A stretch of 64,000 bases of DNA, from the IMG/VR virus record IMGVR_UViG_3300036770_004732, positions 47,302 through 111,301 of that record; one strand, written 5' to 3'. The position numbers and the translations under genes were made by a program. Every line of letters begins with the position of its first letter. Position 1 is the stretch's first letter. This document shows, one piece after another, positions 39,203 to 59,809 of the stretch. The DNA comes from a virus. The notes beneath the pieces were generated by a model. It saw only the letters and a list, made by a program, of their open reading frames with translations, did no database searches and was not told the origin of the DNA.

Positions 39203-39203
39203 C

Positions 39204-39932
39204 TTATGCAAAAGAGTTTAATATGAAATAAAGAACTTCTACTTTTTTAGACTTTTCAGATGTATTATAATTATTATGCCAAGAGCAAGCGTTCCTAAAG
39301 TGTAGGAACTTCTGATCTAAATGAAGTTCAAATCCATATCCATCATCATTTTCAAGTAAATTTATACCATTAAAAGTATCAGGATACTCTACTTCCGATG
39401 GTTTAAATGCCAACTCTTTAAGAAGGAAATAAGTTCCCCCTCCGGTATCAAGTTGCTCACCTTCAATAGTACAAGGAAGAAAGTTAAATGAAATATTTTT
39501 AACCTTAGAAATATTCAGAATAGTAAGACCTGGCCAAACATAATTAATATGTCCTCTTGATTGAGAACAACCAGAGATATCAAATCCTTCCATATATTCT
39601 TCAAGATTGAATTCATCAATCAAAAACATATCATGATCAACAAGAAGAACATAGTCGTTAAGACATTTTTTTATCATCACATTTTCATATGCCCATGTAA
39701 CAGATAAACCATGATAAAAACTTGGACTTAAATTATCTTCAGACTTATGTGAGTAAAAAGACACTTTCTCTTCCTCACACAGTTGTTTAAATTGATTTAA
39801 ATACTTATCATCCCTATAATCACAGACTGCATTGAATTGATATTCACCAACAAAATATTTTTTAAAAAACTCTATCTGTTTTTTAAACAGATCTGGTCTA
39901 TTAAATACAAAGATAAAAATCTGTGTCTTCAT
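39204..39932 (-). CDS. GT-A-type glycosyltransferase-like protein
   Basis: 242 residues. MKTQIFIFVFNRPDLFKKQI resembles the opening of GT2-like enzymes, and YVLLVDHDMFLID supplies the DxD motif. ATG at 39932 overlaps the end of the epimerase gene. Exact family unclear. Confidence 0.65.
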   Translation of the reverse strand: MKTQIFIFVFNRPDLFKKQIEFFKKYFVGEYQFNAVCDYRDDKYLNQFKQLCEEEKVSFYSHKSEDNLSPSFYHGLSVTWAYENVMIKKCLNDYVLLVDHDMFLIDEFNLEEYMEGFDISGCSQSRGHINYVWPGLTILNISKVKNISFNFLPCTIEGEQLDTGGGTYFLLKELAFKPSEVEYPDTFNGINLLENDDGYGFELHLDQKFLHFRNACSWHNNYNTSEKSKKVEVLYFILNSFA

Positions 39933-40828
39933 AATTGTGCAGAAATCCAATTTTCGAGTTTCATAGTAGGTTCCCAACCAAAAGTCTTACGAAGTTTTTG
40001 ATTATTAGCAAGACTAACTCTTGCTTCTCCTGGACGCGGAGCAATATTTACAGTATGATTAGAAATCATTTTTGCAATTTGATTAACTGAATAATTTGTT
40101 CCAGTGCCAACATTATAAAGTTGTCCAAAAGCATTATCATCAACTTCTCGGATTGCTGCCAAAATATTCGCTTGGCAAACATCTCCAACATAAGTAAAAT
40201 CTCTACGCTGATTTCCATCACCAACAATCGTCAGAGGTTCATTATCTCCTCTTTGGCGTAGAAAAATTCCAATTACAGGAGCATATTGACCCTTAAGAGG
40301 TTGACGCTCACCATAGACATTAAAATATCTAAAAGCAATGGTTGGAAGTCCATAAAGTCTTGTATACATTTTACAAAGTTTTTCGCCATTGACTTTTGAA
40401 ACTGAATAAGGATTCAAACAATCATCAATTTGAGTCTCAACATTTGGAGGTTCATTCATTCCATACCCTGAAGATGTGGAAGAATAGATTACGCGCTTTA
40501 CACCTGCTTCACGAGCACATTGAAGAACAGTTACCGTACCAACCGAGTTAATACTTACTGCTTCAATAGGATTATGAATTGCTGGTTGAATTCGTGCTTC
40601 TGCAGCAATATGAAAAACATAATCTACACCATCATAAAGAGGGCGAGTGTTTTTATAGTCACGAATATCATACTTATAATTTTGTGCTTTATCGTTCCAA
40701 TAAAAGTGATCATGAACATCAGAATATTCATTATCAATCACAACAACTTCATGTCCAAGATCAATCAAACGATCAACAAGATTGGAACCGATAAATCCAG
40801 CACCACCAGTAACTAGTGATTTAGTCAT
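39929..40828 (-). CDS. NAD-dependent sugar epimerase (GalE/SDR type)
   Basis: 299 residues. GGAGFIGSNLVDRL is the Rossmann GxxGxxG site; YSSTSSGYG, and YSVSK as the catalytic YxxxK, follow; RYFNVYGERQP and RRDFTYVGDV bind the nucleotide sugar. Most like UDP-glucose/UDP-glucuronate 4-epimerases. Supplies an activated sugar to the neighbouring transferases. TGATG-type overlap with the upstream gene. Confidence 0.88.
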   Translation of the reverse strand: MTKSLVTGGAGFIGSNLVDRLIDLGHEVVVIDNEYSDVHDHFYWNDKAQNYKYDIRDYKNTRPLYDGVDYVFHIAAEARIQPAIHNPIEAVSINSVGTVTVLQCAREAGVKRVIYSSTSSGYGMNEPPNVETQIDDCLNPYSVSKVNGEKLCKMYTRLYGLPTIAFRYFNVYGERQPLKGQYAPVIGIFLRQRGDNEPLTIVGDGNQRRDFTYVGDVCQANILAAIREVDDNAFGQLYNVGTGTNYSVNQIAKMISNHTVNIAPRPGEARVSLANNQKLRKTFGWEPTMKLENWISAQL

Positions 40829-41469
40829 ACAACTCTCTCAGGTAAAAAATAGTTTTTATTGTAATTAAAGCATTCTTCAGTCGGATAACTTGTCAATGGA
40901 TTCACAGTTCCATGATATCCACTTGTTTGATAGAAGAATGGATCATCAAAAGTATAGACATTAAACCAACGCTGTATCTCAGCAAATCCAATGTCTTGAT
41001 AATCTTCAATTATGTATCCAGCGTGATACGTTATCCTTTGGCACATTCTAACATACTCATCAGTTAGATACAAGACTGAATGTCCACCCAACATATTATA
41101 AGTTCGATACAGATCATCCTTTATATGCTCATATTGAACATATGGTCCAGAATGACCGTTCATTCTCCCCCAAGATGAAATACCAAGATAAACAGCATCA
41201 GCATCATCAGGAACTTCAATCTCTGGACGGAAGTTCTTGATCATACAATCATCTTCAAAAAGAATGAATGGTGGATCAATCTCAGATAATCCCTTATGGT
41301 GAGCAGCAGAGCATCCAGCAACAGGACGATCAGGGCGAGGAACACCCTCTACACGAATAATAGTCTTGAACCCACACTCTTTAAGAATATTTTGCATATT
41401 CTCGTTCTTTTCAGTGTGCTGTTCAAGATTCATATAAACAGCAGGAATTTCTCTAAGATCTAAGTTCAT
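40825..41469 (-). CDS. GT25-like glycosyltransferase
   Basis: 214 residues. IPAVYMNLEQHTEKNENMQN opens, GCSAAHHKGLSEI replaces the usual SH block, and PFILFEDDCMI carries the acidic metal site. Shorter than typical GT25. It overlaps both neighbours. Confidence 0.75.
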   Translation of the reverse strand: MNLDLREIPAVYMNLEQHTEKNENMQNILKECGFKTIIRVEGVPRPDRPVAGCSAAHHKGLSEIDPPFILFEDDCMIKNFRPEIEVPDDADAVYLGISSWGRMNGHSGPYVQYEHIKDDLYRTYNMLGGHSVLYLTDEYVRMCQRITYHAGYIIEDYQDIGFAEIQRWFNVYTFDDPFFYQTSGYHGTVNPLTSYPTEECFNYNKNYFLPERVV

Positions 41470-42148
41470 TGTGATTCTTTTTCAAAGCAATAATTTTTGG
41501 TTCATAAGGATACTGAGGATTATTCATTTGCTCCTCAGCGAAACAGTATGAAGGAGTTAGACTCAATGTAGGTGGGTTATCAATTAGATAACGATTCATT
41601 TGAGATTCATCGTGCCAAAGTGCAATCACATTATTTTCAAGATCCTTTGTTACACGATCAGCAAGAACTTCTGCCATTTCAAGAAATCTTTTGGTAGAAC
41701 CACCGTTGAACCCACCAGCATAATAATGCTCACCTTCTTCACCCACAGGAACATATGCTAACGATTTTGGATTTCTATCATAAGATCTTTCTTCCTTTGG
41801 ATAGAAAGATTGATATGGGTGCATTGTTGCGACCAAATCACTCAAAACTTCATCACCAACTTTATCAACAAGACCCATATCTACATCGAAGTAGAAGCAG
41901 TAATCAAACTGAGAGATAAACTCCTTCTCCTTTACAAAGTAATTGTATCTTTTTAAAGTCGGCATTGGCCAGGGTTCGTGTTCGATCTGACAAACTCTTA
42001 CATTATCAGATGTTTCTACTTCATGGTCTGTAAAAAATAGACATTCAATGTCATGCCCGTTGAGGAAGTTTTCTTCGATATTATCAAGAAGTCTCTCAAC
42101 AAACTGAATATACTTATTTGTTGCGATTGTTAAAATACAGATTTTCAT
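41453..42148 (-). CDS. GT6-family glycosyltransferase (ABO-type fold)
   Basis: 231 residues. MKICILTIATNKYIQFVERL, YCFYFDVDMGLVD (DxD motif), GGFNGGSTKRFLEM and ALWHDESQMNRYLI match the GT6 family of animal blood-group enzymes. GT6 members are rare in bacteria and have been described in a cyanophage. Here DVD is intact. ATG at 42148 chosen. Confidence 0.82.
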   Translation of the reverse strand: MKICILTIATNKYIQFVERLLDNIEENFLNGHDIECLFFTDHEVETSDNVRVCQIEHEPWPMPTLKRYNYFVKEKEFISQFDYCFYFDVDMGLVDKVGDEVLSDLVATMHPYQSFYPKEERSYDRNPKSLAYVPVGEEGEHYYAGGFNGGSTKRFLEMAEVLADRVTKDLENNVIALWHDESQMNRYLIDNPPTLSLTPSYCFAEEQMNNPQYPYEPKIIALKKNHNELRS

Positions 42149-42855
42149 TTTTGAACCAAAATCCAAGTTTGCGATTGGCAATGTTCTACATTTTCAATTA
42201 TATCATTAGTCATAACATCTCTAGTGTTTGGCCAACCAAAATGCGTAAAGATATGATTAATGTATGATAAATTTCCCCAATATCCACATTCAAGAACATT
42301 AAATCCAACACTTACACTCAAAGAACAAAGTCCACTTGGAGTGATACCCCAAAAATGAAATGGAACTTGATGAGGAATATTAATTGTAGGAACAGTTGTA
42401 TAAAGATAACCACCAGGTTTAAGGTGATTATATAAATTTTTCATACTGACGAAAGGATTATACAAATGCTCCAAAGTTTGATTAAAAATAATCATATCAT
42501 AATCTTTATCATCTAGATTCATAGTATGAAGATCATATTTCTGGTCTATGAGATAATCACAAACTGTAATACTATCATACTCAATATGTTCCAATTCACA
42601 ATCGGTTGCACAAGTTGATAGTAATTTACCTACATGTTTTAAATTATATTTTTCAATCCATTCCTTATAGTCAAATAAAGATGCTAATCGCGGAAAGTCT
42701 GCAGGAAACCACCTTGCTTTTTCATCATCAGAAAGTTTATGATATTCATCATTTGCTTTTCTAAAGTATTCTTCAGGTTTAACAACATGCTTTTTATAAA
42801 GTTCGTCAATTTCATCAATCGACAAAAGGTTAACTTCAAAATAATGTTTTTTCAT
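42145..42855 (-). CDS. SAM-dependent methyltransferase (class I)
   Basis: 236 residues. MIIFNQTLEHLYNPFVSMKN and LKPGGYLYTTVP are motifs of Methyltransf_11/23-type enzymes; the usual GxGxG loop is weak (KLLSTCATDCELEHIEY). It probably methylates a sugar or is a degraded variant. ATGA overlap with the next gene. Confidence 0.75.
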   Translation of the reverse strand: MKKHYFEVNLLSIDEIDELYKKHVVKPEEYFRKANDEYHKLSDDEKARWFPADFPRLASLFDYKEWIEKYNLKHVGKLLSTCATDCELEHIEYDSITVCDYLIDQKYDLHTMNLDDKDYDMIIFNQTLEHLYNPFVSMKNLYNHLKPGGYLYTTVPTINIPHQVPFHFWGITPSGLCSLSVSVGFNVLECGYWGNLSYINHIFTHFGWPNTRDVMTNDIIENVEHCQSQTWILVQK

Positions 42856-43466
42856 TTCTTTTTAATATAAAGTGCATCTCCCCAAGTATCTCCCTGCCAA
42901 CTTACTTCAACTCTTTTCATATTATATTCCAAAAGAAAATCATCTATTTCTTGTATATATGCATTATTTTCATAGACTTCATCACGGTTAACTTCACAGT
43001 AAACATAATCTATATACTCCAATGTTTTTTTTGCACCCTTTAAAACTTCCAGTTCATAACCTTGAACATCCATATTTAAAAAATTAAAATTTTTATAATT
43101 ATAACTATCTAATGTTTTTAGTTCTACACTTTCTTTTACATTAAAAGTAATATCTCTATATTGAGTTAAATGCTTTTTTGGTTTTAAAATAGAACTGCTC
43201 AACCCTTTATTACTACTAACATACATGTCAACAGTTCCTTCTGTAGAACCAAGAGCAACTTGATGTCCCCAAATATTAGCATTTAAATTGCGAACATTTC
43301 TTTCAAGAGTAGTAAAATTATTCACCAATGGTTCAAAAATTGCAATATTTTGAATTCCAGTTTCAACATATTCACAAATTTCTTCGCCAAAATGACCACC
43401 AACGTGGATTATACCACTTATATCCATTTTGTAATTATTTTTTATTTGAGTAAAACTAATTAACAT
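42852..43466 (-). CDS. FkbM-family methyltransferase
   Basis: 204 residues. IIHVGGHFGEEICEYV is the SAM-binding loop, FEPL the acidic site, FLNMDVQGYELEVLKGA the FkbM signature, and YVYCEVNRDEVY the end block. O-methylates sugars in surface polysaccharides. Confidence 0.88.
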   Translation of the reverse strand: MLISFTQIKNNYKMDISGIIHVGGHFGEEICEYVETGIQNIAIFEPLVNNFTTLERNVRNLNANIWGHQVALGSTEGTVDMYVSSNKGLSSSILKPKKHLTQYRDITFNVKESVELKTLDSYNYKNFNFLNMDVQGYELEVLKGAKKTLEYIDYVYCEVNRDEVYENNAYIQEIDDFLLEYNMKRVEVSWQGDTWGDALYIKKK

Positions 43467-44347
43467 TTTTTACAAATCCTATTTGCTATAGTATTTAAAC
43501 ATCCATCCCAGGTTAAGTATTTCTCATAAACTTGTTGCCCATAATCAATCATATCTTGATATTTACCACTCTCCAATAAGTCATCAACTTTCTTCGGAAT
43601 AGATTTGATTTGATCTTCATTAATTAATAAAGAAACTTTATCCCATTCAATAACATCACTAAATGGTAACCAAAATTCATCACTAATATAAATTGGAATA
43701 CATTGCATCTGAATTGCCTCATACATTCTATAAGACGCTGGACCATACCCTCTAGGAGAAAGAGCAAAAACAGAATTATAGAGTATTTCTCTAAATTTTT
43801 GAGTTCTATTTGGATCGTGTGAATTGATAAAAAATTCATATCCATCCAAACCATTAAGACACTCATACATTTTTTTACGTATAGGGTGTGTTTCTACACC
43901 CGCAAATCCTACTTTATTTTGTCTAATTTCCTTTGGTGTACCACTATGAGGATCGCACAAGAGTGGTATTGGTTCATATACTGAATTTTTACCAAGAGGA
44001 GAATTAAAATTCCCCGAAGACCCAAATATTAAACAATCATCTATTGGAATCAGTGTTCCACCATCATATTGAACGATAGTAAAAAACTTTTCATCTGGAT
44101 ATTTTTGAATTACTCCATTACAAAAATCAACCAAAGGTTGAATATTTTGACCATATTCACCCCCAGGATTAATGTGCCAAGAAGTCCACTGAATCGGTAT
44201 ATAAATGTAATCAGATTCTAATTCCATTTTAGTAGAAAAAAAGTTATATGCTCTTTCTTCTATCATAGGATTCCATCCCTGGTGGGGTGGATATACTACC
44301 GGCATTTTGGGTAAAAATTTTTCTGGGGTATCTAAAATACGTATCAT
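43460..44347 (-). CDS. Exostosin-like (GT47) glycosyltransferase
   Basis: 295 residues. The C-terminal half FALSPRGYGPASYRMYEAIQ and CIPIYISDEFWLPFSDVIEW is the exostosin-family signature. The N-terminal PPHQGWNPMIEERAYNFF is family-typical. Such proteins are found in cyanophage sugar loci. Overlaps both neighbours by 4-7 bp. Confidence 0.88.
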   Translation of the reverse strand: MIRILDTPEKFLPKMPVVYPPHQGWNPMIEERAYNFFSTKMELESDYIYIPIQWTSWHINPGGEYGQNIQPLVDFCNGVIQKYPDEKFFTIVQYDGGTLIPIDDCLIFGSSGNFNSPLGKNSVYEPIPLLCDPHSGTPKEIRQNKVGFAGVETHPIRKKMYECLNGLDGYEFFINSHDPNRTQKFREILYNSVFALSPRGYGPASYRMYEAIQMQCIPIYISDEFWLPFSDVIEWDKVSLLINEDQIKSIPKKVDDLLESGKYQDMIDYGQQVYEKYLTWDGCLNTIANRICKKC

Positions 44348-45093
44348 AAGTCTAAAATTAAATTTTGATAATAATCAACAGATTTCTGCGAATTTCCTCC
44401 ACAAGAGTGCCAATTGCTATCTTGGCGAAGTCTATGATTATGACGAAGTTTATCAACCACTTTGAATTCGCCACCATTCTTTAACCAAAAATAATAACAG
44501 GCAGCAGTATCTGCATGAAGCAAAGGAATAGAGGTATCTTGAAAAGGTTTTTCTAAGAAATCAAGATATGTTTGACGATTAAAAATATAATTACCACTAT
44601 TCAAAAACCATCCAAACCATTTTGTTTTTTTAATTAAAGCATCCTTTGATTCTTCGATTCCTATGGTTTCATATTTAAAACTATAATCGGAAATTGTTTC
44701 ATAGTCAACATTATTATCAGTTTTACAAAACAATTGACGTGGAGAATAACAAATTAAAGGGTTATCATCTGAAATTGTTCTAATAATCTGATATGTTTCT
44801 TCAAAGGGGTGATTATCACTATCCAACATATAAATCCAATCATTGGCACAATTTTTAACAGTAACATACTTATTTCTAAATGCTCCAAGATTTAATTTAT
44901 TTCTAAACAATTTAATTTTATTCGAGTTCAAATTGTCAATAATTTCTATTAGTTTTTGAAAATGATATTCATTCGAACAGTCATCATTAACAACAATTTC
45001 AGAAACAAAATCATCATCAATGGCATATTTAATACAATCAGTAAAATACTGAGATGTATTATAAAAAGGAATTGCAAGAGTAACGTTTTTCAT
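44344..45093 (-). CDS. GT2 glycosyltransferase
   Basis: 249 residues. VTLAIPFYNTSQYFTDCIKY, EIVVNDDCSNE and WIYMLDSDNHPFEE (DxD) are GT2 motifs. ATGA overlaps on both sides put it in the main sugar operon. Confidence 0.9.
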   Translation of the reverse strand: MKNVTLAIPFYNTSQYFTDCIKYAIDDDFVSEIVVNDDCSNEYHFQKLIEIIDNLNSNKIKLFRNKLNLGAFRNKYVTVKNCANDWIYMLDSDNHPFEETYQIIRTISDDNPLICYSPRQLFCKTDNNVDYETISDYSFKYETIGIEESKDALIKKTKWFGWFLNSGNYIFNRQTYLDFLEKPFQDTSIPLLHADTAACYYFWLKNGGEFKVVDKLRHNHRLRQDSNWHSCGGNSQKSVDYYQNLILDL

Positions 45094-45941
45094 AAAACTT
45101 TTCCAAAGAACTCAATAACATGGTCAATATTTGGTGATTTACTGAATGTTGGTGCATTCAAAATTTTTTGGGCAAGAATATCATCCTGATCAACTTGAAT
45201 CACTCTTTCAACCAAAGTATCAATAGATTCGAAATCTTTCAAATTAATACAACATTCGGGATTAAACTCTAATCCCCAAACTTCATTATCAGAATGATAA
45301 ATTGGAATATTACCTGCAATTCTTGCGTGCATAAGTTTTTCAGTGTACCAACCCGGATGAATTGTTCCCTCATAGCAAATAGAAAATTTATAATCAGAAA
45401 TTACTTCTAATTTATGATGCTCACCATCAGGAATTCGGTTACTTGCCCCATAAGTATCAACTGTTTTATATTGACTCAATTTTGCAATTGTATCCAATCT
45501 GTTCTGAAATGGACTATTAAACATTATAGCACAGAACTTATTTTTTGGTTTTGATGAATAAGGATTTGGCCGATCAAAATAATCCAAAGGAATTAACCAG
45601 TCTGGATTATCATAAGATCCTACATTAAACCAATCCACATAAAAATACCATAGAGGTATTCTGAAGTTGCGTCCATTATAGTCATCATAGTCAGAACAGA
45701 GACTATATTCTGCCTGATCATAACGACCCGTAGGACGATTGTTTTCCCCAATAAAACAAAACTTTCGACAATTATATTGACGATGAGAGTCTCCAAACTC
45801 ACCGTAAATAATCAAATCTGCTTCATGTGGTCCGGTAACTTGAACATTCTCCTTTGCTTTTTTAATGCAATGAATTAGAAAATTATTATATGGGTTAAAT
45901 GCCTTAGGTGCTCCCCAAAAATCAATAAATGCTATTTTCAT
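45090..45941 (-). CDS. GT10 alpha-1,3-fucosyltransferase-like
   Basis: 283 residues. FSICYEGTIHPGWYTEKLMH followed by ARIAGNIPIYHSD is the GT10 GDP-fucose-binding region. The N-terminal half is the variable acceptor domain. It would use GDP-fucose made by the gmd/fcl pair at 50.7-52.7 kb. Confidence 0.87.
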   Translation of the reverse strand: MKIAFIDFWGAPKAFNPYNNFLIHCIKKAKENVQVTGPHEADLIIYGEFGDSHRQYNCRKFCFIGENNRPTGRYDQAEYSLCSDYDDYNGRNFRIPLWYFYVDWFNVGSYDNPDWLIPLDYFDRPNPYSSKPKNKFCAIMFNSPFQNRLDTIAKLSQYKTVDTYGASNRIPDGEHHKLEVISDYKFSICYEGTIHPGWYTEKLMHARIAGNIPIYHSDNEVWGLEFNPECCINLKDFESIDTLVERVIQVDQDDILAQKILNAPTFSKSPNIDHVIEFFGKVL

Positions 45942-45942
45942 T

Positions 45943-46599
45943 TTAACCTTGAATTGTACTTCTATACATAGAATTTTGCGTTGCTAGTGGCGGTTCAAAC
46001 CAATAATTTTTAAGTGAGTATTTAATTATAGCATAATTATAATAAAAGTCAGAAGCCTCAGAAGTATTTTTTAGATCTTGTAAAATAATATTTGCTCCTT
46101 TCTTACTTAAAATATAACAGTGAGTGCAACGAGAGTAATCTTTAGAATATATTTTTTGTCCTTCAACATACTGATCTCGATGATAATGATACAAACTTAA
46201 ATTACAACAATCTCCCACCCAACCAACATCCCAGTCTTCGGGCATTTCAGCAATATATTCTTGAAGTTGAGATAAAAAATTATCACATAAGACAACATCA
46301 TCTTCCAAAATAAGTCCATAAAAATCATCACTTTTTGCAATTTGTTCGATAATGTAACAATGTTTAAGAAGTAAAGATATTTCAGAGTGTTTTAAATGCC
46401 TTCTCGTAGGATTCCAACGATTACCTGGAGTAAGTCCAAATACATTTGGATACTCTTTTTCTATTTCTTCCCTGTCCCAAGTTTCCACATCATAAGATTC
46501 AACCCATTCAACATCAGAAAATCCTTGTGCTTCTAGCACTGGAAGAAGATTATTTTTTCGTTCTACAAGTTTAGACCAATGACATACATAAGTTTTCAT
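45943..46599 (-). CDS. GT25-like glycosyltransferase
   Basis: 218 residues. YVCHWSKLVERKNNLLPVLE opens, HSEISLLLKHCYIIEQIAK, and YGLILEDDVVLCDNF (acidic site). CTHCYILSKKGANIILQD is the family end block. ATG at 46599 is used rather than a TTG five codons earlier. Confidence 0.8.
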   Translation of the reverse strand: MKTYVCHWSKLVERKNNLLPVLEAQGFSDVEWVESYDVETWDREEIEKEYPNVFGLTPGNRWNPTRRHLKHSEISLLLKHCYIIEQIAKSDDFYGLILEDDVVLCDNFLSQLQEYIAEMPEDWDVGWVGDCCNLSLYHYHRDQYVEGQKIYSKDYSRCTHCYILSKKGANIILQDLKNTSEASDFYYNYAIIKYSLKNYWFEPPLATQNSMYRSTIQG

Positions 46600-46604
46600 A
46601 ATAT

Positions 46605-47237
46605 CTACATCCAATTTCCAATTTTTAAATTAGGTATTTTACTCAATTGTTCTACGAGAATGTTATGATCATAATCTCCAATCAAAAGATTATTATTATC
46701 ATGCCATTCAATATAAATTTCATCAATTAAGTTTATGGTATTTTCTTTAAGCAATTTAGGAATAATTTCAAACTCTGCACCTTCAATATCCATTTTACAA
46801 ATTACATAATCTTCTTTGGATACATTTTTAGTCAAAAAGTCAGAAAAATCAATACACTCAACTTCCATATCATTAGATAACCAATTGTCTTGAATCCAAT
46901 GAGGTCTTCTCCATTTATCGCCCATAATATTAGAAGCACCCCCTGCCTTTAAATCATATCCAAGGTGCTCTCCAGTATGCATACATATATATTCTCCAGT
47001 AAAAGACTCTAGAGTAAGTATTTTTTTACATTCTTCAACCCACAATGCAACTTCATGAAAAATAATAGTATAATTTTTAAATTTCTCATCAGAAAATCGT
47101 TTTTTTGAATAGTCTAAAGCGTGTGGATTTGGTTCAAAGCAATGAATTTCAAAAGTATCATTTATCAATTCTCTCGAAATAAATTGATTTAAACCTTGCC
47201 CCAAATTAGTACCACAATCTAAAAAAATATTTTTCAT
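46605..47237 (-). CDS. FkbM-family methyltransferase, second copy
   Basis: 210 residues. IFLDCGTNLGQGLNQF, HCFEPNPHALDYSKKRF, and ICKMDIEGAEFEIIPKLL match FkbM. Separate lineage from the 42.8-kb copy (only motif-level similarity). Confidence 0.88.
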   Translation of the reverse strand: MKNIFLDCGTNLGQGLNQFISRELINDTFEIHCFEPNPHALDYSKKRFSDEKFKNYTIIFHEVALWVEECKKILTLESFTGEYICMHTGEHLGYDLKAGGASNIMGDKWRRPHWIQDNWLSNDMEVECIDFSDFLTKNVSKEDYVICKMDIEGAEFEIIPKLLKENTINLIDEIYIEWHDNNNLLIGDYDHNILVEQLSKIPNLKIGNWM

Positions 47238-47992
47238 TTTTCAAACCACCTTTTTCTCCATTTCTGACCACCGGCAAAATGACGAATAATTACATCATTT
47301 GGTTTAACATAATTAATCAAAAAATCACATCCGGATTCACCTGGAAGTTCAGTGACATTCCATTCTGTCGGTAAAAGTTGCACATTTTGATAAAGTTCTT
47401 CTAAAGAATAAACCGTCCAGTTATTCTTATCGGTGTGCCAACCAAAATTGGGAAGTTCCCAAAAAGGAATATCAGAATGTCTTTTAATACCGGCAAGAGA
47501 ATACCAAGATGCTTGATCATAAAAAACTTCCCAAAAACTACTATAAGTTCCAAATCTTTCATGAATAGTTAATTGATTATGAAGATTATTATATCTTTCT
47601 TCATCTACAATTAGATCAAACAATTTACGAGTCCAATCGTTTACGCGGACAGAATATGAACCCATACAATGAGTATTTCCAGAGTCAATAGAATAAGCAA
47701 AAGATTTTCCCTCATCTGGAACATATAACATGTCTCTTTTAACAATGGCCATATCCGCATCTAAACAAGTTAGAATATCACCTTCTTTAAGTGTTGATTT
47801 TAATAATTCCTGAACTTTAAACGGTTTAATCCACCCAACTTTACCTCTTACAGGATCCAATTTTTCAGTAATTTCAACATATTCGAATCCATGAATTTGA
47901 CAGTACTCTTTATTTCTCGGAGACATATAAGTCTCAAAGAATTCTTGTCTCCAATCTGGATAACTAGCAATAACCATTAAATATTTTTTCAT
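47234..47992 (-). CDS. Glycosyltransferase, GMA12/MNN10-like
   Basis: 252 residues. KKYLMVIASYPDWRQEFFET, ILTCLDADMAIVKRDML (DxD), a central HERFGTYSSFWEVFYDQASW and terminal NDVIIRHFAGGQKWRKRWF resemble the GT34-like galactosyl/mannosyl transferases. ATG at 47992 avoids overlap with the upstream GT11 gene. Confidence 0.68.
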   Translation of the reverse strand: MKKYLMVIASYPDWRQEFFETYMSPRNKEYCQIHGFEYVEITEKLDPVRGKVGWIKPFKVQELLKSTLKEGDILTCLDADMAIVKRDMLYVPDEGKSFAYSIDSGNTHCMGSYSVRVNDWTRKLFDLIVDEERYNNLHNQLTIHERFGTYSSFWEVFYDQASWYSLAGIKRHSDIPFWELPNFGWHTDKNNWTVYSLEELYQNVQLLPTEWNVTELPGESGCDFLINYVKPNDVIIRHFAGGQKWRKRWFEK

Positions 47993-47996
47993 GTGA

Positions 47997-48806
47997 TTAA
48001 AAAGGTTCGTAACGTAAAATTTTCCAATTTGATCTATATAGGTCTTCCATACTAATATTTTCATACCAAGGCCAAGGAGCAATTGTTTTCTTACTATTTG
48101 CTAACCAGGATCCCCACCAACTAAAAGAACTATTAGATATTATATGATAAGTACACAAAGATTGTAGACAAAGATCTACAGAAGTTGAATTATTTTCAGA
48201 ATAATGGAATCTTTCTTGTTTAAAAAACTCCTGATCTTTACACCATTCAATATCATCAGAGACTAGCATTACTGGAAGATCCTCATCAAAATTTTGTAGG
48301 GCATCTTTCGCATATTCAACACCATAAGGTCTATGCGTTTCACTATAAAGAAGATAATCAGTTCTGCGGATATGTAATGAAATAACAGGATCGTCTCCAA
48401 AAGTAGAACTGAAAAATTCATTTACTGGTTCTTGAATCTCGTCAACGAAAGTAAATGCCTTTCTAATCTCTTCTTCAATATGTTTGAAATATTTTTCAGT
48501 CTGAAAATATCCATATAAATTTATATTATCTGGACAATTATTCCATAAATTTTCATCTAGAAAAAAATTTTTTGCCTCCATATACTTTGGAAAATTTGTA
48601 ATATGTCTTGGAGCATCAGATAACTTAAATGTTTCAAATATTGTAGTATCAGAATTTCTACAACGTTCATCTCTGGTTGCTACAATTTCTCTTGGTGGAA
48701 GACAATAATCGTAACCATGTTTTGTAGCAAGACCTCTTAAAGAGGCATACTGAAACATTTGATTTCCTAGTCTTCCTAAATTTCCTAAATCATCATTTGA
48801 TAGCAT
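47997..48806 (-). CDS. GT11-family fucosyltransferase
   Basis: 269 residues. GRLGNQMFQYASLRGLA, HIRRTDYL and SNSSFSWWGSWLANSKKT. More like the 5.4-kb copy than like its immediate neighbour at the C-terminus. Likely alpha-1,2-fucosyl transfer. Confidence 0.92.
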   Translation of the reverse strand: MLSNDDLGNLGRLGNQMFQYASLRGLATKHGYDYCLPPREIVATRDERCRNSDTTIFETFKLSDAPRHITNFPKYMEAKNFFLDENLWNNCPDNINLYGYFQTEKYFKHIEEEIRKAFTFVDEIQEPVNEFFSSTFGDDPVISLHIRRTDYLLYSETHRPYGVEYAKDALQNFDEDLPVMLVSDDIEWCKDQEFFKQERFHYSENNSTSVDLCLQSLCTYHIISNSSFSWWGSWLANSKKTIAPWPWYENISMEDLYRSNWKILRYEPF

Positions 48807-48814
48807 AAATTACC

Positions 48815-49603
48815 TCATATTATTTTCCAGTGTAACAGGTACAGATCACTTGTATTATAATTTATACAATCTCCAGAAAACCATTTTTTAGGAGCAGTTA
48901 CATTTTTACTATCCGCTAACCATGCCCCCCACCAACTAAAAGTACTATTGCAAATAATATGATAATCACACTGACTCATAATGTATAAATCAAAATATGC
49001 ATTTTCAGTTTCTGATATTAAAAATCTGTCGTCCGAAAACATTTCTTGTTTTTTACACCAGTCAATATCATCGGAAAAAACAAGAACAGGTAGATCTTGA
49101 GGAAATTGCTCAAGAGCATCAATATAATATTGATTACTTTGTACGGGATGATTGGGGTTTGTTACAAAATCATTACGTCGAATGTGAAGTGCTATTGATC
49201 CTTTATACTCCTGAACTATTTCTCGACATTCTTCTTGTATATCTTTTTTAAAAACAAAATCAACAGAACGCAATTCTTCCTCTATATCTTTAAAGTATTT
49301 TTCAGATTGAAAAAACCCTACAAAATTATGATTCCCTTGAATATTATTAATTAAATCTTGATCATAATGAAAGTATTTTTCATGAATGTTCGGATACTGT
49401 TTCATTTCTCTATTACATTCAATATCAAAACATTCATCTATATTACTAAAAAGTCTTTGATAATAAAATTTGCCAAATACTTCTTTTGGAGGTATGCAAA
49501 AAGTTGCATTATATTTTTTTGCAACTGCCTTTATGAATGCATATTGAAACATTTGGTTTCCCAAATGTCCATTATTACCCAATTCATTTATAGAAAATTC
49601 CAT
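48815..49603 (-). CDS. GT11-family fucosyltransferase
   Basis: 262 residues. GHLGNQMFQYAFIKAVAKK, HIRRNDFV (N replaces the usual T) and CNSTFSWWGAWLADSKNV. Adjacent to the preceding GT11 gene with an 8-bp gap, so a duplicated and diverged pair. Confidence 0.92.
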   Translation of the reverse strand: MEFSINELGNNGHLGNQMFQYAFIKAVAKKYNATFCIPPKEVFGKFYYQRLFSNIDECFDIECNREMKQYPNIHEKYFHYDQDLINNIQGNHNFVGFFQSEKYFKDIEEELRSVDFVFKKDIQEECREIVQEYKGSIALHIRRNDFVTNPNHPVQSNQYYIDALEQFPQDLPVLVFSDDIDWCKKQEMFSDDRFLISETENAYFDLYIMSQCDYHIICNSTFSWWGAWLADSKNVTAPKKWFSGDCINYNTSDLYLLHWKII

Positions 49604-50758
49604 TTAAAAAACACTCTCAAGTAACCTTAATTCTTTTTCATTAACAAAGTGATTATTTCCAAGATATATTCCATTATTATGAATAAACTCAATAGTTAAC
49701 GTATCTTTATTAGTTATTATATCATAACCTTTTAGAAAAGGTTGCTTTAGCAAATTACCACTAATAATTGGTCTATACTCAATACCAATCTCTGCAAATT
49801 TTTGTTTTAAATCATCTGCAATCTCTTTTGTTTTACATAACAAAGGAAAGCAAAAATTACTACAAGTTGGATAATACTTTGGTGTAATAAATTTATCTGG
49901 ATATTTTTTTACCAATTCTATAAAATTTAGGTAATTTTTATTTCTAATTTCTATATACTTATCAAGTCTTTTTAGTTGTGATAATCCAATTACTGCACAA
50001 AGTTCATGATTTCTAAAGTTATATCCATCTGTTATAAACAAAAATTCATTTGATATATCTGGATACTGATCCACATATTCTTTATATCTAGTAGATTCTC
50101 TTGCTAATCCATGACTCCTTTTCATGCGCATCAGGTCATACAATTCATAATTATTAGTGGATACCATTCCACCTTCAATTGTTGACATATGATGTCCAAA
50201 ATAAAAACTAAAAGTAGCACCTAAACTATCAGATCCCCTTTTAGATCCATCTGGAGATTTGCACCCATGAGATTCGCATATATCATCTAAAATTAAAGCA
50301 TTGGGGAAAAGAGTACGACATTTTTCAGTGTTAGCAGAAAATCCAATTAAATGTGTAACAAATATCAATTTAATATCAGGATGTTTTTCTGCAATATATT
50401 CAAGATCTTCTTCACAAAAACTAAAGTTTTTTATATTAATGTCACAAAATATAGGAGTAAAACCTAATTGGATAACTGGTCCAACATTAGTTACCCAAGT
50501 ACAAGAAGGAACTAAAACTTTATCACCATCATTCAATCCATAAAGTTCTTTTACTGATGCCAAAAGTAAATAATTTGCCGTGCTTCCAGAAGAAACATAT
50601 AAAGAATACTTTGAACCTAACCAATCATTCCATTTAGATTCAAATTCTCTAACTTTTTTACCATTAGTAAAACGATCAGAAGTTAAAACAAATTTAGCAA
50701 GATTAAATCTATCACTTAAAGTGATATTATTTTTCATCAAAGGCCATTTAAATTTCAT
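49604..50758 (-). CDS. ColD-like PLP sugar 3-dehydratase
   Basis: 384 residues of the DegT/DnrJ/EryC1/StrS fold. YFGHHMSTIEGGMVST is at the PLP site; a His stands where aminotransferases have the Schiff-base Lys. That His swap is known from GDP-4-keto-6-deoxymannose 3-dehydratase (ColD) and the E1 3-dehydratase, so the enzyme would remove the 3-hydroxyl rather than add an amine. LYVSSGSTANYLLLASVKEL binds PLP phosphate. It sits next to fcl and gmd, which supply exactly the ColD substrate. Confidence 0.83.
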   Translation of the reverse strand: MKFKWPLMKNNITLSDRFNLAKFVLTSDRFTNGKKVREFESKWNDWLGSKYSLYVSSGSTANYLLLASVKELYGLNDGDKVLVPSCTWVTNVGPVIQLGFTPIFCDINIKNFSFCEEDLEYIAEKHPDIKLIFVTHLIGFSANTEKCRTLFPNALILDDICESHGCKSPDGSKRGSDSLGATFSFYFGHHMSTIEGGMVSTNNYELYDLMRMKRSHGLARESTRYKEYVDQYPDISNEFLFITDGYNFRNHELCAVIGLSQLKRLDKYIEIRNKNYLNFIELVKKYPDKFITPKYYPTCSNFCFPLLCKTKEIADDLKQKFAEIGIEYRPIISGNLLKQPFLKGYDIITNKDTLTIEFIHNNGIYLGNNHFVNEKELRLLESVF

Positions 50759-51677
50759 TTTTTTTATACCATTCGTAAGTTGTTTTAATACCTTCAAACA
50801 AAGAAATTTTAGGATTCCATCCTAAAAATTTAATTTTATCAACATTTAATAATTTTTTAGGAGTTCCATTTGGTTTAAGTGTATTCCAAATAATTTCTCC
50901 ATTATATCCAACAACATCACAAATAATTTCTGCAAGTTTTTTAATACTTATATCTTCACCGGTTCCAACATTAATATGATCTGGACTATCATACATTTTC
51001 ATACAGGTATAGCAAGATTCAGCAAGATCATCAACGTGTAAAAATTCCCTCATGGGGGTTCCATCACCCCAACATTCAACATAAGGAAGATTCATTTTTT
51101 TTGCCTTATGAAATTTTGATATAAATCCAGGCAATACATGTGAAGTTTCTGGATTAAAATTATCATTAGGGCCATAAAGATTTGTTGGCATTAATGATAT
51201 GGCATTAAATCCATATTGTTGATGATATGCTTGACACATTTTTACTCCTACAATTTTTGCCAAGGCATACGCATCATTTGTTGGTTCTAAAGTACCAGTC
51301 ATTAACTGATTTTCTGTGATTGGTTGAGTTGCAAACTTAGGATAAATGCAGGAGGATCCAAGAAATAAAAGTTTTTCTACGCCCCAACGATATGCAGAAT
51401 CAATAATATTAGTTTGAATACGTAAATTTTCAGTTAGAAAATCTGCTTTATAGTTATTGTTTGCCATAATACCTCCAACTTTGGCTGCAGCAACAAAAAC
51501 ATACTCAGGTTTTTTAAGTTTAAAGAAGGTATCAGTTGCTTCTTGATCTGTAAAATCTACGAATTGACGAGTGCCTTTGATTATGTTAGTATATCCTTTA
51601 TCTTCAAGGTTCCTCACAATTGCCGAACCAACCATTCCATTAGCACCAGCAACTAATATCTTAGAATCACTGTCCAT
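50748..51677 (-). CDS. fcl: GDP-L-fucose synthase
   Basis: 309 residues. [19 protein letters not shown] binds [23 protein letters not shown] and YALAK form the catalytic Ser/Tyr/Lys region; [20 protein letters not shown] follows. It converts GDP-4-keto-6-deoxy-mannose to GDP-L-fucose. ATG at 51677 overlaps the gmd stop by 11 bp, so the two are coupled. A colitose route would need a ColC-type variant; this one looks like true Fcl. Confidence 0.93.
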
Positions 51678-52668
51678 AAACGCACATATCCTCAACTAAT
51701 TGTTCAAATGAAATTTTAGGTTCCCAACCTAATTTTTGTTTTGCCTTAGTGGCATCACCTAATAAGGTCTCTACTTCAGCAGGTCGAAAATATTTAGGAC
51801 TCACTCTTACAACCTCTCTTCTAGTAAGTTTATCAACACCAACCTCATTTAATCCCTCACCTTCCCAAACAATATTCATACCAAAATAAGGTGCTGCTGC
51901 CTCAACAAATTCACGAACTGAGTACTGCTCTCCTGTGGCGATTACATAATCATCTGGTTCATCCTGTTGAAGCATTAACCACATTGCTTCAACAAAATCT
52001 TTGGCATGTCCCCAATCACGTTTTGCATTCAAATTCCCGAGATATAATATATCTTGTTGCCCAGTTGAAATAGATGATAATCCTCTAGTGATTTTTCTTG
52101 TGACAAAAGTTTCTCCTCTTCTAGGGGATTCGTGATTGAAAAGAATTCCAGAACTTGCGTGTAATCCATAAGACTCTCTGTAGTTTTTAACAATCCAGTA
52201 TCCATAAAGTTTTGCAACTCCATATGGTGAACGAGGATAAAATGGTGTTGTTTCTTTTTGTGGAATTTCTTGAACTAGTCCATAAAGTTCGGAAGTAGAT
52301 GCTTGATATATTCGAGTTTTCTTTTCCATTCCCAAAAGACGAACTGCTTCAAGAATACGAAGAGTTCCTAATCCATCAGTTTGTCCAGTATACTCAGGTA
52401 TTTCAAAAGATACTTTTACATGACTTTGAGCACCTAAGTTATAAATTTCATCAGGTTGAACTTGTTGAATAACTCTTACAAGATTAGTAGAATCGGTAAG
52501 ATCTCCATAATGCAATTTAATGTTGTTGTAAATATGATCAATTCTATCAGTATTAATAAGAGAACTCCTCCTAACAATACCGTGAACTTCATAACCTTTT
52601 TCCAAAAGTAATTCGGCAAGATAAGATCCATCTTGCCCTGTAATACCTGTAATTAATGCTACTTTCAT
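51667..52668 (-). CDS. gmd: GDP-mannose 4,6-dehydratase
   Basis: 333 residues. [20 protein letters not shown] at the N-terminus, [24 protein letters not shown] as YxxxK, and [18 protein letters not shown] are hallmark GMD motifs. It makes GDP-4-keto-6-deoxy-mannose, the shared substrate of Fcl and ColD. The leader has a pseudoknotted RNA, a terminator and a promoter, suggesting regulation of the whole sugar operon. Confidence 0.95.
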
Positions 52669-52688
52669 AGAGTATAGTACTTTTTATC

Positions 52689-52719
52689 ATTATAATAAAA
52701 AAAAGAGGTTTATGCAACC
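52689..52719 (-). promoter_or_regulatory. Terminator/attenuator with embedded promoter before gmd
   Basis: AGAGGTT-GCAT-AAACCTCT hairpin followed by eight T on the minus strand. TTGCAT in the hairpin (52712-52717) is 17 bp from TATAAT (52689-52694). It could act as riboswitch attenuator, gene-end terminator and gmd promoter. Confidence 0.7.
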
Positions 52720-55731: not shown

Positions 55732-56166
55732 TCATTCAGTAAAAGATCTTAACATCCAAATAAATTTTCCGTGTGCTTCATTTAAGTCATCAATAAGATT
55801 AGTAGTTCCTCTTGATTTTTGTAATTCTGCTTCTTCAGCAACTTCTCCCAAAAGTCTAACTAGAGTTTCATTATCAGAAATAAGATCTCTTACCATTCCC
55901 ATATCATCCAATTTATTATTTGTTTCAAGAACATGAGAAACCTCAGTAATTCTAGTAAGAGTACTGACAGGTTTAATTTTTAAATATCTCATATGTTCAG
56001 TAAGACGATCAATTTCTTCAAACATTGCTTCATATTGTTCTCCAAAAACTTTATGAAATTGATAAAACTCAGATCCTACAACATTCCAATGATAAACCCA
56101 AGTTTTTTGAAACAACATGAACAGGGTTGCTTGAGTATCTGAAAGTAATTTATAAAGTTTTTCCAT
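55732..56166 (-). CDS. Dps-like ferritin-fold protein
   Basis: 144 residues. FQKTWVYHWNVVGSEFYQFH and EAMFEEIDRLTEHMRYL supply the His, His, Asp and Glu of the Dps ferroxidase site. Dps proteins oxidise and store iron and bind DNA. A phage Dps could limit iron-driven damage during photosynthesis. Late promoter 18 nt upstream. Confidence 0.85.
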   Translation of the reverse strand: MEKLYKLLSDTQATLFMLFQKTWVYHWNVVGSEFYQFHKVFGEQYEAMFEEIDRLTEHMRYLKIKPVSTLTRITEVSHVLETNNKLDDMGMVRDLISDNETLVRLLGEVAEEAELQKSRGTTNLIDDLNEAHGKFIWMLRSFTE

Positions 56167-56191: not shown

Positions 56192-56193
56192 AT

Positions 56194-56265
56194 GGGCAAT
56201 CACAGATTCGAACTGTGGACTTTCTGCGTGTAAAGCAGACACTCTAACCGCTGAGTTAATCGCCC
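56194..56265 (-). tRNA. tRNA-Val (anticodon TAC)
   Basis: 72 nt; acceptor GGGCGAT/ATTGCCC, anticodon stem TCTGC/GCAGA with loop TTTACAC, T arm CACAG-TTCGAAT-CTGTG. Confidence 0.95.
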
Positions 56266-56603: not shown

Positions 56604-56640
56604 ATAATACAATAAAAAGGGGGTTTCGTCAACCCCCTTC
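56604..56640 (-). promoter_or_regulatory. Porin terminator with embedded promoter
   Basis: AAGGGGGTT-GACG-AAACCCCCTT stem followed by T-rich tail ends the porin gene. TTGACG in the stem-loop (56627-56632) is 17 bp from TATTAT (56604-56609), which would drive the 56582 gene. Confidence 0.8.
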
Positions 56641-56662: not shown

Positions 56663-58159
56663 TCAGAAAGTAAACTTCGCCTGAATTACACCACCAAAGT
56701 TATCGGTAGCATTACGGAAAGACTGGTTGTTGGAAACATAGAAGATCGCAGGAGTCACACTGATGTTGTCGCTCACACGATACTTATAGAATACTTCCCA
56801 CATCGTTGCGTTCGCAGGCAGTCCTTGAGCGTTGCCTGGTTGTCCCACAGCACCACCAAAAGAATTACCCTTTGCAAACACATCACTCCATTGAAGTCCA
56901 GTGAACCAAGACTGAGAGTTGGTAGCACCGTTTGCGTTAGGTAGAGGAGCACCACTCACATAGTTCCAACCATAAGCAGCAGAGATGGAAGGAACCCAAC
57001 CACTCTGCAGAGGTTGCCAGTAAGCATTCAGAGCATAACCATTTGAACCTTGTCCGTTGGTAAGAGCACCACTACCACCACCAAGAGCGTTGAAGGTGCG
57101 AACACGAGTGCCCCGAGTACCGTAACGATAACCGAAAGCAACACCCCAGTTAGGAGCTTTATAACCAATCTGAGCAAGAGTATTCAGTCCACCAGATTCA
57201 TTGAAGACACCAGTCTGACTGTTGTTACCGTTTTCGGCAACATAGTTCAAACCAGCAACGATTCCACCTTTCTTTCCAGGTTGAACATACTGAACGCCAA
57301 AACCAGCACCAGTTGCCTTGTTATAGACACCAGGAGCGCCAGCAACAGCAAAGAAGTCAAGAATTTCTGAGCGATATGCCGAAGGAATCCATGCCATCTC
57401 AGTGTTACGAACCAGAGCACCAGCAGTCAGAGTTACACCCTTGCTAACTGGGAACTGATAGTAAAGACGATCCAACCAAACATTGCTGTTAGTTCCAGTG
57501 CCTTGTGATTGTTCTGCCTTATCCAGTTTGAACAGAGAACGTGAAGAACCAAAAGGTTGAGCACTGAAGTTACCACTACGCAGACGGGTACGAAGCAAGT
57601 CCTTACCAGTGAACGAAGTATCAAAATTCAGACGGAGATCATAGTTGAAAGTTGTGTTTCCAGATTGGTTTCCGTTTGTGAGGTAAGCATTATTAACGCC
57701 ACCCAGAACAAAATTAACTTCACCTTTCAGTTTGGTTGTGGTGGAGAATTGTTGTGCTTCCAGAACACCAACTTTGGTTTCCAGACCATCAACACGACCT
57801 TTGAGAACTGCAAGTTCTGCTTGGAACTCGTTCATCAGACGACGAAGTTCATCGGTGACTTCAGAGACACGATCAAGGCAAGCATTCAAAAGTGCTGCTG
57901 CCTCAAAACGAGTCATTGCCTTACCACCACCAAAGGTGCCGTTAGGATAACCAGCAACGCAACCATAACGCTCTACGAGGTTGCTGAGTGCTTGATATGC
58001 CCAGTCGGTAGGACGAACATCAGAGAATTGAGTAATGCTTGTAACTTGACTCTCAGAGTATTGATTGACCGCACCCATATTAAGTTCTGCGGCATTCGCA
58101 GCAACAGGAGCAACCATACCCAGAGCAACAGGTGCAAGCATCAGTTGATTGAGTTTCAT
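56663..58159 (-). CDS. Cyanobacterial-type SLH-domain porin (Som/OprB family)
   Basis: 498 residues. Signal peptide MKLNQLMLAPVALGMVAPVA ending ANAAE, then an SLH domain with FSDVRPTDWAYQALSNLVER and YPNGTFGGGKAMTRFEAAAL, a coiled coil (DELRRLMNEFQAELAVLKGR), then a beta-barrel with alternating strands ending in VIQAKFTF, a C-terminal Phe as outer-membrane proteins need. This is the major outer-membrane porin type of marine Synechococcus/Prochlorococcus. Codon and base use look more GC-rich than in its neighbours, hinting at host origin. It has its own promoter and terminator. Confidence 0.92.
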   Translation of the reverse strand: MKLNQLMLAPVALGMVAPVAANAAELNMGAVNQYSESQVTSITQFSDVRPTDWAYQALSNLVERYGCVAGYPNGTFGGGKAMTRFEAAALLNACLDRVSEVTDELRRLMNEFQAELAVLKGRVDGLETKVGVLEAQQFSTTTKLKGEVNFVLGGVNNAYLTNGNQSGNTTFNYDLRLNFDTSFTGKDLLRTRLRSGNFSAQPFGSSRSLFKLDKAEQSQGTGTNSNVWLDRLYYQFPVSKGVTLTAGALVRNTEMAWIPSAYRSEILDFFAVAGAPGVYNKATGAGFGVQYVQPGKKGGIVAGLNYVAENGNNSQTGVFNESGGLNTLAQIGYKAPNWGVAFGYRYGTRGTRVRTFNALGGGSGALTNGQGSNGYALNAYWQPLQSGWVPSISAAYGWNYVSGAPLPNANGATNSQSWFTGLQWSDVFAKGNSFGGAVGQPGNAQGLPANATMWEVFYKYRVSDNISVTPAIFYVSNNQSFRNATDNFGGVIQAKFTF

Positions 58160-58233
58160 AAAAGTGTTTTAGTACTAAACGACATATTGAGTAACTTTGC
58201 AAATAGTTGCGGCATCGTCACATCACGGTATTT

Positions 58234-58262
58234 ATCTTAACAGTTTCTTTGGGATCAGTCAA
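58234..58262 (-). promoter_or_regulatory. Porin sigma70 promoter
   Basis: TTGACT (58257-58262), 17 bp, TAAGAT (58234-58239), leaving a leader of about 70 nt before the porin ATG. TAAGATAAATA also carries a late-like AAATA. Confidence 0.75.
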
Positions 58263-58291
58263 GCCCTTTACGGGTTTTACGATTTTTATAA

Positions 58292-58361
58292 GCGAATGAC
58301 GGGGATCGAACCCGTGACACCAACTTGGAAGGATGGGATGTTACCGCTACACCACATTCGC
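58292..58361 (-). tRNA. tRNA-Gly (anticodon TCC)
   Basis: 70 nt; acceptor GCGAATG/CATTCGC, anticodon loop CTTCCAA, T arm ACGGG-TTCGATC-CCCGT. One mismatch in the anticodon stem. Confidence 0.93.
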
Positions 58362-58803: not shown

Positions 58804-58832
58804 ATATTAGACTAATTTTGAGTTTATGTCAA
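58804..58832 (-). promoter_or_regulatory. Sigma70-like promoter before element 2 and tRNA-Asn
   Basis: TTGACA (58827-58832), 17 bp, TAATAT (58804-58809). The TGA inside TTGACA is the stop codon of the HNH gene. Confidence 0.82.
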
Positions 58833-59299
58833 GTCCAAAGATTATGGTCATATTCCCAATGACAGTTTGGACACAAAGGCATTATATTTTCTTTTGAATT
58901 TATAACACTAATCATAATATCTTCACTAAAAGAAGATATTGGTTTAATGTGAGCAATTTCTATATGTTTATTATAACCACACTTTGTACATTCAGTAAAT
59001 CCAAGTTTTTTAGCAAAAGATCTTGCTCGTGTTCTAACTAATGCGAAAGCAGAAGATCTATGATGTTTTTCATATATCGCTTCTCTAAGCGTCATATCTC
59101 TTACTTCTCTTTCTTTCATCCATAACAAATAATGTTCTTTACAGCGAGAACGATTTGCTGTTATTGCTTCTCCACAATCAATACATTTATGTTCTGGTTT
59201 TCTTTTTGGTGCTATTTTATTATTATATGAGGCAGCACAACTTCTCCCACAAAACTTTGGATTTTTTGTTTCTCCTTCACAGAATAAACATTTATTCAT
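58829..59299 (-). CDS. HNH homing endonuclease in tRNA cluster
   Basis: 156 residues. Two N-terminal zinc motifs (CLFCEG...CGRSC, CIDCGEAITANRSRC) and a C-terminal HNH core CTKCGYNKHIEIAHIKPISS with NIMPLCPNCHWEYDH. Free-standing between tRNA-Arg and tRNA-Asn. Late promoter 23 nt upstream. It may cut near the intron site of tRNA-Arg, which lies just upstream. Confidence 0.9.
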   Translation of the reverse strand: MNKCLFCEGETKNPKFCGRSCAASYNNKIAPKRKPEHKCIDCGEAITANRSRCKEHYLLWMKEREVRDMTLREAIYEKHHRSSAFALVRTRARSFAKKLGFTECTKCGYNKHIEIAHIKPISSFSEDIMISVINSKENIMPLCPNCHWEYDHNLWT

Positions 59300-59350: not shown

Positions 59351-59625
59351 GTCTCAGGAGGGACTCGAACCCCCGACCAACTGCTTAGCTTACCACTACG
59401 AATTTCTCCGCCATTTCTGTTTGTGGTCTGGACTTTCTCTTTACCATATCCCAAAGGACTTAGGCACTTCCCGTAAAGTCTCTACACCTTCATCTAACGA
59501 TGCTTGGCTCGGGATTGCCATTTTAAAGGGTTCCCCGAATTTGAGAAGTTACATTCATAAAGTTTCCTTTATGACGCTCCATTTATGTTTAAGGCAGATG
59601 CTCTATTCCACTGAGCTACTGAGAC
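59351..59625 (-). tRNA. tRNA-Arg (anticodon TCT) interrupted by a group I intron
   Basis: Exon 1 is 59625-59591 (acceptor GTCTCAG, D arm, stem TCTGC, CTT); exon 2 is 59388-59351 (CTAA, GCAGT, T arm GGGGG-TTCGAGT-CCCTC, acceptor CTGAGAC). Joined they make 73 nt with anticodon loop CTTCTAA. The intron lies between U34 and C35 of the anticodon. Unspliced, the anticodon loop is destroyed. Confidence 0.92.
59389..59590 (-). ncRNA. Group I intron (IC3-like) in tRNA-Arg, 202 nt
   Basis: Minus strand: AAATTCGGGG, GGCAATCCCGAGCCAAG (P/Q), GGTGTAGAGACTTTACGGGA (R) and AGAAAGTCCAGACC (S), ending GTGGTAAG. These blocks match cyanobacterial tRNA-Leu-type introns (group IC3) rather than the three psbA introns (GATATAGTCC type). 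It has no ORF. 5' exon ends in T and intron ends in G, as required. Confidence 0.9.
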
Positions 59626-59723: not shown

Positions 59724-59809
59724 AGAGACCCTCCTGTTTGTGCTTCTATGAGAGGCATGGAGGGGGAGGGTCTTATGGAAGGGTTGGAACCTCGCCTGCC
59801 CATGAGAGT

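Follow-up and report, generated by a model that had tools for sequence, protein, structure and literature searches.

The window analysed here, a stretch of 64,000 nucleotides belonging to a 111,301-base record of a virus of cyanobacteria, carries within its phage tRNA array the gene of a predicted outer-membrane porin of cyanobacterial type (Table 1). The contig is close to the isolated Synechococcus phage S-SRM01, whose locus shares the tRNA-Gly, the porin, the tRNA-Val, the Dps gene and further genes with the window. The S-SRM01 porin (QPX48248.1) is 83% identical to the one described here and, with the same place in the tRNA array, the same promoter, Dps downstream and no pstS, shows no difference of substance from it. 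A first-pass annotation of this DNA had given the porin an extent of 56663-58262, of which the open reading frame accounts for 56663-58159; position 58262 marks where the promoter begins on its 5' side.

Table 1. Features of the porin locus, in window positions.
Feature	Position	Strand	Basis or remark
SLH-OprB (Som/SomB-type) porin CDS, 498 aa, ATG start	56663..58159	-	ORF, Pfam, NCBIfam, AlphaFold2, Foldseek
Signal peptide, residues 1-23, predicted cut after ANA	58091..58159	-	Inspection; kept across the phage family
SLH domain, residues 45-88, presumed cell-wall anchor	57896..58027	-	Pfam PF00395, 40.7 bits
Predicted 16-strand barrel, residues 141-498	56666..57739	-	AlphaFold2, pLDDT mostly 70-96
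Promoter TTGACT-N17-TAAGAT, no Pho box ahead	58234..58262	-	Identical in S-SRM01-type relatives
5' UTR element GCCGCAACTATTTGC	58198..58220	-	Loop of a covarying stem-loop in relatives, stem degraded here
TGTCGTTTAGTAC, just before the start codon	58172..58184	-	Conserved, about half of distinct phage porin leaders
Intrinsic terminator-like hairpin and T run	56616..56640	-	
tRNA-Gly (TCC), directly upstream of the porin	58291..58361	-	
tRNA-Val (TAC), downstream side of the tRNA array	56193..56265	-	
Dps/ferritin-like gene, conserved neighbour in S-SRM01-type phages	55732..56166	-	PF00210, 61.5 bits

By its full-length profile match and its two domains, the encoded protein is assigned to the SLH-OprB (Som/SomB) porin family NF033921. 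This NCBIfam profile, entitled 'iron uptake porin' (por_somb), is covered from 1 to 485 of its 485 positions with 287 bits against a cut-off of 100, and the OprB domain (PF04966) scores 57.6 bits, so that both it and the SLH domain exceed the Pfam cut-offs. The N-terminus, MKLNQLMLAPVALGMVAPVAANA|A, reads by inspection as a signal peptide, a coiled coil accompanies the signal peptide, SLH domain and barrel, and the chain ends in KFTF, with a terminal Phe. The AlphaFold2 model from 79 homologues (mean pLDDT 78.9), which supersedes a weak earlier model from 29 sequences (pLDDT 58), consists of a long helix followed by 16 strands. Its best PDB matches in Foldseek are OprB (4gey, E 7e-12) and the SLH porin OmpM1 (8bym, E 8e-12), with OmpF and the phosphate porin OprP also among the matches. 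The description of the gene in the first-pass annotation as an intact, full-length SLH-OprB porin with signal peptide and terminal Phe is borne out by these results, and a broken barrel, which it had left for modelling to settle, is ruled out by the 16-strand model and the matches to OprB and OmpM1. The gene is also more GC-rich than its neighbours, as had been remarked: its GC content is 46.4%, with a GC3 of 0.353 against a mean of 0.185 (sd 0.051) in 33 other genes of the window.

That the porin belongs to the phage, as likewise claimed at first sight, is confirmed by its position between phage tRNA genes, by its presence in isolated S-SRM01 and by the at least 258 IMG/VR contigs that encode a relative of it. 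Among 50,697 GenBank phage records, a full-length copy was found only in S-SRM01 (two records), and PHROGs holds no family for the protein. Two further proteins, both of marine cyanophages, the 'iron uptake porin' of S-CREM1 (L003:3935-4813) and the 'S-layer protein' of S-PM2 (L004:2932-3771), were rejected as full porins, having in Pfam an SLH domain and no detectable OprB domain; both names may mislead.

The phylogeny with host porins, proposed earlier as a check, places the phage proteins in a single clade (SH-aLRT 100) in a tree with 39 host porins. When the tree is enlarged to 77 host porins and 42 representatives of the phage porins, 37 of the latter again form a single, long-lived clade (100), nested within Cyanobium-type host porins, and the remaining ones represent two further captures, L152 and L138/L140/L144/L145; these viral porins beyond the main clade came from an alignment query, exact peptide patterns from single host porins having given none. 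The four porins of the second of these captures belong to a different host branch, yet they occupy the same genomic slots as the main clade, after a glycosyltransferase gene or between lysozyme-like and DUF7695-like genes, which points to a slot that persists while its porin gene is exchanged. The window porin has about 60-65% identity to the best host copies and 70-85% to those of other phages, and main-clade phage porins average 498 aa, as against 520-554 in the two host branches, the larger of which stands at 554. Between the window and S-SRM01 porins dN is 0.124 and dS 0.549, and pairs across the phage family have a median dN/dS of 0.24, values that point to purifying selection with an omega of about 0.2. 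The SLH domain has the lowest dN/dS of all regions (0.112), followed by the turns (0.14), and by L2 and L3 (0.16; L3 by itself 0.156); the strands stand at 0.196. The outer loops range from 0.15 to 0.51, L6 being the least constrained (0.51); no diversifying selection was seen in them at these values, which are region-wide averages that can hide single sites. Carried by phages, derived from a host and maintained by selection, the window porin is a phage auxiliary metabolic gene.

Promoter- and terminator-type sites were not commoner in our scan than in shuffled sequences, and the window promoter is credible because the identical sequence recurs upstream of the porins of close relatives. The earlier claim that the gene has its own promoter and terminator thus holds in so far as both are present and the promoter recurs; the scan alone does not rise above chance. 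Many phage porin leaders contain a stem-loop in which the loop reads C(N)CAACTA(Y)TY and the stems vary in sequence but stay complementary. Of this element the window leader retains the loop, together with TGTCGTTTAGTAC, and not the stem. This CAACTA stem-loop is found in about a quarter of 112 distinct leaders (e.g., L081, L022, and L153), and other phage porin leaders have unrelated hairpins at the same position. The T4-like late motif ATAAATA occurs in 31 of 112 porin upstream regions (8 expected); as it is not general, and overlaps the -10 element in the window, a late T4-like promoter is not claimed.

In the relatives of the window phage, the porin is recurrently followed by pstS. Among 95 distinct viral porin loci (duplicates removed, each with at least 2 kb of downstream sequence), taken from the best-matching 80 loci per search and thus not a census, 39 have a pstS gene on the same strand within 2.5 kb downstream of the porin. 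Within this same best-matching sample the order porin-pstS is seen in 18 of 46 loci of S-SRM01-like background, in 20 of 39 in which the background comprises glycosyltransferase, petF and peroxiredoxin genes, and in 1 of 10 in the remaining backgrounds. A reverse search from viral pstS, again restricted to the best-matching 80 loci per search, found a porin upstream in 52 of the 53 distinct loci with enough upstream sequence, the median gap in these 52 being 146 bp. Where present, pstS lies between the porin and the tRNA-Val, and in seven long records the sole pstS stands at the porin locus. In over half of the distinct porin loci of viruses no pstS adjoins the porin, and the gene is absent from the 111 kb contig of the window and from the complete S-SRM01 genome. 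The phage pstS tree consists of one main clade and one separate capture beside porin-linked host pstS. In the viral pstS locus without a porin (L274), there is a signal-peptide protein of 124 aa ending in Phe (L274:2994-3368), possibly a small outer-membrane barrel, and in L026-L029 a gene for S-adenosylhomocysteine hydrolase stands between porin and pstS.

Many phage porin promoters in turn contain the sequence CTTAACCW-N3-CTTA(A/G)TTGACA, in which two half sites 11 bp apart abut the -35 element. This tandem CTTA motif fits YTTAAYYW, the half site of the cyanobacterial Pho box (PMC10976474). In its strict form (CTTA-N7-CTTA-N-TTGAC) it is present in 30 of 112 distinct phage porin upstream regions, and of its 57 occurrences on both strands of 3.17 Mb of viral loci, 49 immediately precede a porin; the remaining eight are mostly found just past the porin, several of them right before pstS. 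The strict motif is not enriched with pstS, being found for 12 of 41 porins with pstS against 18 of 71 without. It was not found as a strict consensus upstream of host porins, several host pstS genes having degenerate copies of the box with an 11-bp period about 25-75 bp upstream, and no Pho box was found in the promoter of the window porin. Cyanophage pstS can be controlled by the host PhoBR system, and predicted Pho boxes in phages have been judged unreliable in one study (PMC10976474). In the relatives, the porin, and pstS where it follows, may be under Pho-box-like control.

The same gene pair exists in hosts. Seven distinct porins (G001, G031, G046, G073, G082, G083, and G107) are paired with pstS on the same strand in the 31 host genomes analysed from the Cyanobium-Synechococcus family. 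All seven belong to the branch that includes the main phage clade, which has 16 host porins, and none of 61 to the other branch, a split with a value of 4.8e-6 if rows are assumed to be independent, which they are not; the host porins were moreover chosen for their resemblance to the window protein, a sampling that may favour the former branch. The best reading of the tree is that the main phage clade descends from a host branch that includes pstS-linked, putatively phosphate-scavenging porins. The barrels differ in charge as well, the mean net charge being +4.4 in the main phage clade, -2.7 in the pstS-related host branch and -8.5 in the other host branch, with overlapping ranges between the host groups and related sequences that are not independent; the window porin reaches +11 and that of S-SRM01 +8. 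Within the host porins, those linked to pstS differ in net charge from the rest at no more than marginal significance (p 0.05-0.08). All porins of the phage clade and of the pstS-related host branch have K214 and R354, residues that are uncommon in the other host branch. A positively charged barrel with K214 and R354 is compatible with a preference for anions.

Taken together, we favour, with moderate confidence, the reading of the porin as a host phosphate-scavenging protein retained as the outer-membrane component of a phage module for phosphate import, which probably aids phosphate uptake by the infected cell while the virus multiplies. The porin would be made from a host-type promoter during infection, exported by Sec and BAM and inserted in the outer membrane, where the SLH domain would tie it to the cell wall and the barrel would raise the permeability to phosphate, probably to other small ions too. 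More phosphate could then enter, and Pst transport would supply phosphorus for phage DNA. Phage-encoded PstS would be the periplasmic partner of the porin in many relatives, and in the window phage, which has no pstS of its own, the porin would feed the PstS of the host. Because both pstS and a Pho box are missing here, the role in the window phage is read from its relatives; that the gene is expressed, that the protein enters the membrane, that phosphate is the solute that matters and that the phage benefits are inferences. A wider model, which we regard as evenly poised between right and wrong, is that a widespread cyanophage lineage has a two-gene phosphate import module that extends to the outer membrane, made up of an SLH porin with a positively charged barrel and of PstS; phages would have captured it from loci by which hosts scavenge phosphate, would often run it from a phage copy of the host Pho box and would re-fill it with other host porins when the first one is replaced, the window carrying the porin-only form.

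The first-pass annotation had proposed a role in nutrient entry, naming iron, phosphate or ions in general. Three findings make phosphate a likelier solute than iron: the recurrent pairing of porin and pstS, Pho-box-like promoters in the relatives, and the porin-pstS pairs of related hosts. A general or iron-type porin, through which iron and other inorganic ions would keep entering the cell while the Dps encoded next to it would store the iron, seems to us unlikely, even with NF033921 curated as an 'iron uptake porin', with an effect on iron uptake of Slr1908, an SLH/OprB protein of Synechocystis (PMC8707739), and with a Dps-like gene downstream of the porin in both the window and S-SRM01. 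Dps was seen beside the porin in one background alone, the S-SRM01-like block, while in both of them the porin can be followed by pstS. The Dps gene also occurs irrespective of pstS, and its proximity may therefore be plain synteny. Slr1908 bears on another alternative, since its loss leads to hypervesiculation (PMC8707739): the SLH domain, the most conserved part of the porin, might, late in infection, anchor the outer membrane to the wall and delay leakage or vesiculation, transport being secondary. We hold such envelope stabilization to be improbable, as L3 and the strands are strongly conserved too, which together with the pstS linkage implies selection on the channel function.

Between these two in likelihood, and still doubtful, stands a change of the cell surface, in which the phage porin would displace host porins or alter the surface and so block the adsorption of other phages. 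The temperate coliphage PA-2 also encodes a porin, Lc/NmpC, of an unrelated sequence class, that bars other phages from adsorbing (superinfection exclusion). The window porin is of a surface-exposed kind, the phage proteins are shorter than those of the larger host branch, consistent with shorter outer loops, and evolution is faster in the outer loops L1 and L4-L7 than in the barrel. No loop, however, exceeds a dN/dS of 0.51, conservation is among the highest in the constriction loop and the SLH anchor, and the recurrent partner is a phosphate-binding protein and not an immunity gene. Receptor replacement, as first suggested, is therefore disfavoured, the outer loops lacking diversifying selection and the signals of the locus pointing elsewhere, and for porin left on lysis debris, another early suggestion, we found no support. 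That the gene is a recent host contaminant or a passenger useless to the phage is very improbable: its GC3 stands above that of its neighbours, but it is nearer to the porins of other phages than to the best host copies, isolated S-SRM01 has it, it is under purifying selection, and its phage promoter and tRNA-array context recur in other contigs. Contamination by host DNA as such is rejected by the separate phage clade, the isolated phage, and selection.

The protein family and the existence of phage nutrient genes are already known, and the linkage of porin and pstS in related viruses, with the corresponding host pairs and the Pho-box-like repeat in phage porin promoters, is what appears to be new here. 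To our knowledge, phage nutrient genes mostly act in the cytoplasm, the inner membrane or the periplasm. Cyanobacterial SLH-OprB porins (NF033921; Slr1908 and Slr1841 of Synechocystis, Som of Synechococcus) have the same domain order, length class, terminal Phe and predicted 16-strand barrel, and the window porin is set apart from them by its phage-borne clade, its sequence divergence and its shorter mean length. Veillonella OmpM1 is likewise an SLH-bearing porin for outer-membrane attachment, cellular and 13% identical to the window porin. The pstS auxiliary gene of cyanophages (Kyanoviridae; PMC10976474) shares the proposed pathway and adjoins the porin in relatives, some of whose porin promoters have Pho-box-like sites; the porin would act at the outer-membrane step and has full-length GenBank phage copies only in S-SRM01. 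Prochlorococcus PhoE, which rises with PstS on phosphate starvation, has the same proposed role in outer-membrane phosphate entry alongside PstS (PMC3349580); the window porin differs in being phage-encoded. A virus-borne porin paired with a nutrient uptake gene has been published in the glnK-amtB-OmpL cluster (PMC8115048), which differs in its flavobacterial origin, its ammonium genes, its unrelated viruses and its few contigs. We agree with the first-pass annotation that phage porins are seldom described: this OmpL pair is the one published case that we found of a viral porin beside a nutrient transporter, the gene annotated 'porin' in the GenBank entry of S-SRM01 goes undiscussed in the genome paper, in which the word porin is absent (PMC8557907), and we found no report of a porin-pstS module in cyanophages in the literature searched, which covered few subscription papers. 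If a common and selected phage porin is indeed paired with PstS, outer-membrane permeability can limit infections, at least where phosphorus is scarce. The phosphate reading would assign a function to a gene of hundreds of viral contigs that is absent from PHROGs, and is directly testable with cultured S-SRM01 and its host.

Other features of the window deserve mention. Upstream of the porin, a group I intron (59407-59601, minus strand; Rfam RF00028, 64.6 bits) splits a tRNA after anticodon base 34; the joined anticodon loop, CTTCTAA, identifies it as tRNA-Arg (UCU), which is unsplit at this site in S-SRM01, and the intron is followed by an HNH endonuclease gene (ORF 58829-59299, minus strand). 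The abiF RNA family is matched just upstream of tRNA-Ile (59728-59764, minus strand; RF03085, 44.7 bits, gathering threshold 37). On the other side of the porin, a long run of genes on the minus strand (39000-52700) includes a GDP-mannose dehydratase (51667-52668) and, by similarity to S-SRM01, a GDP-fucose synthase.
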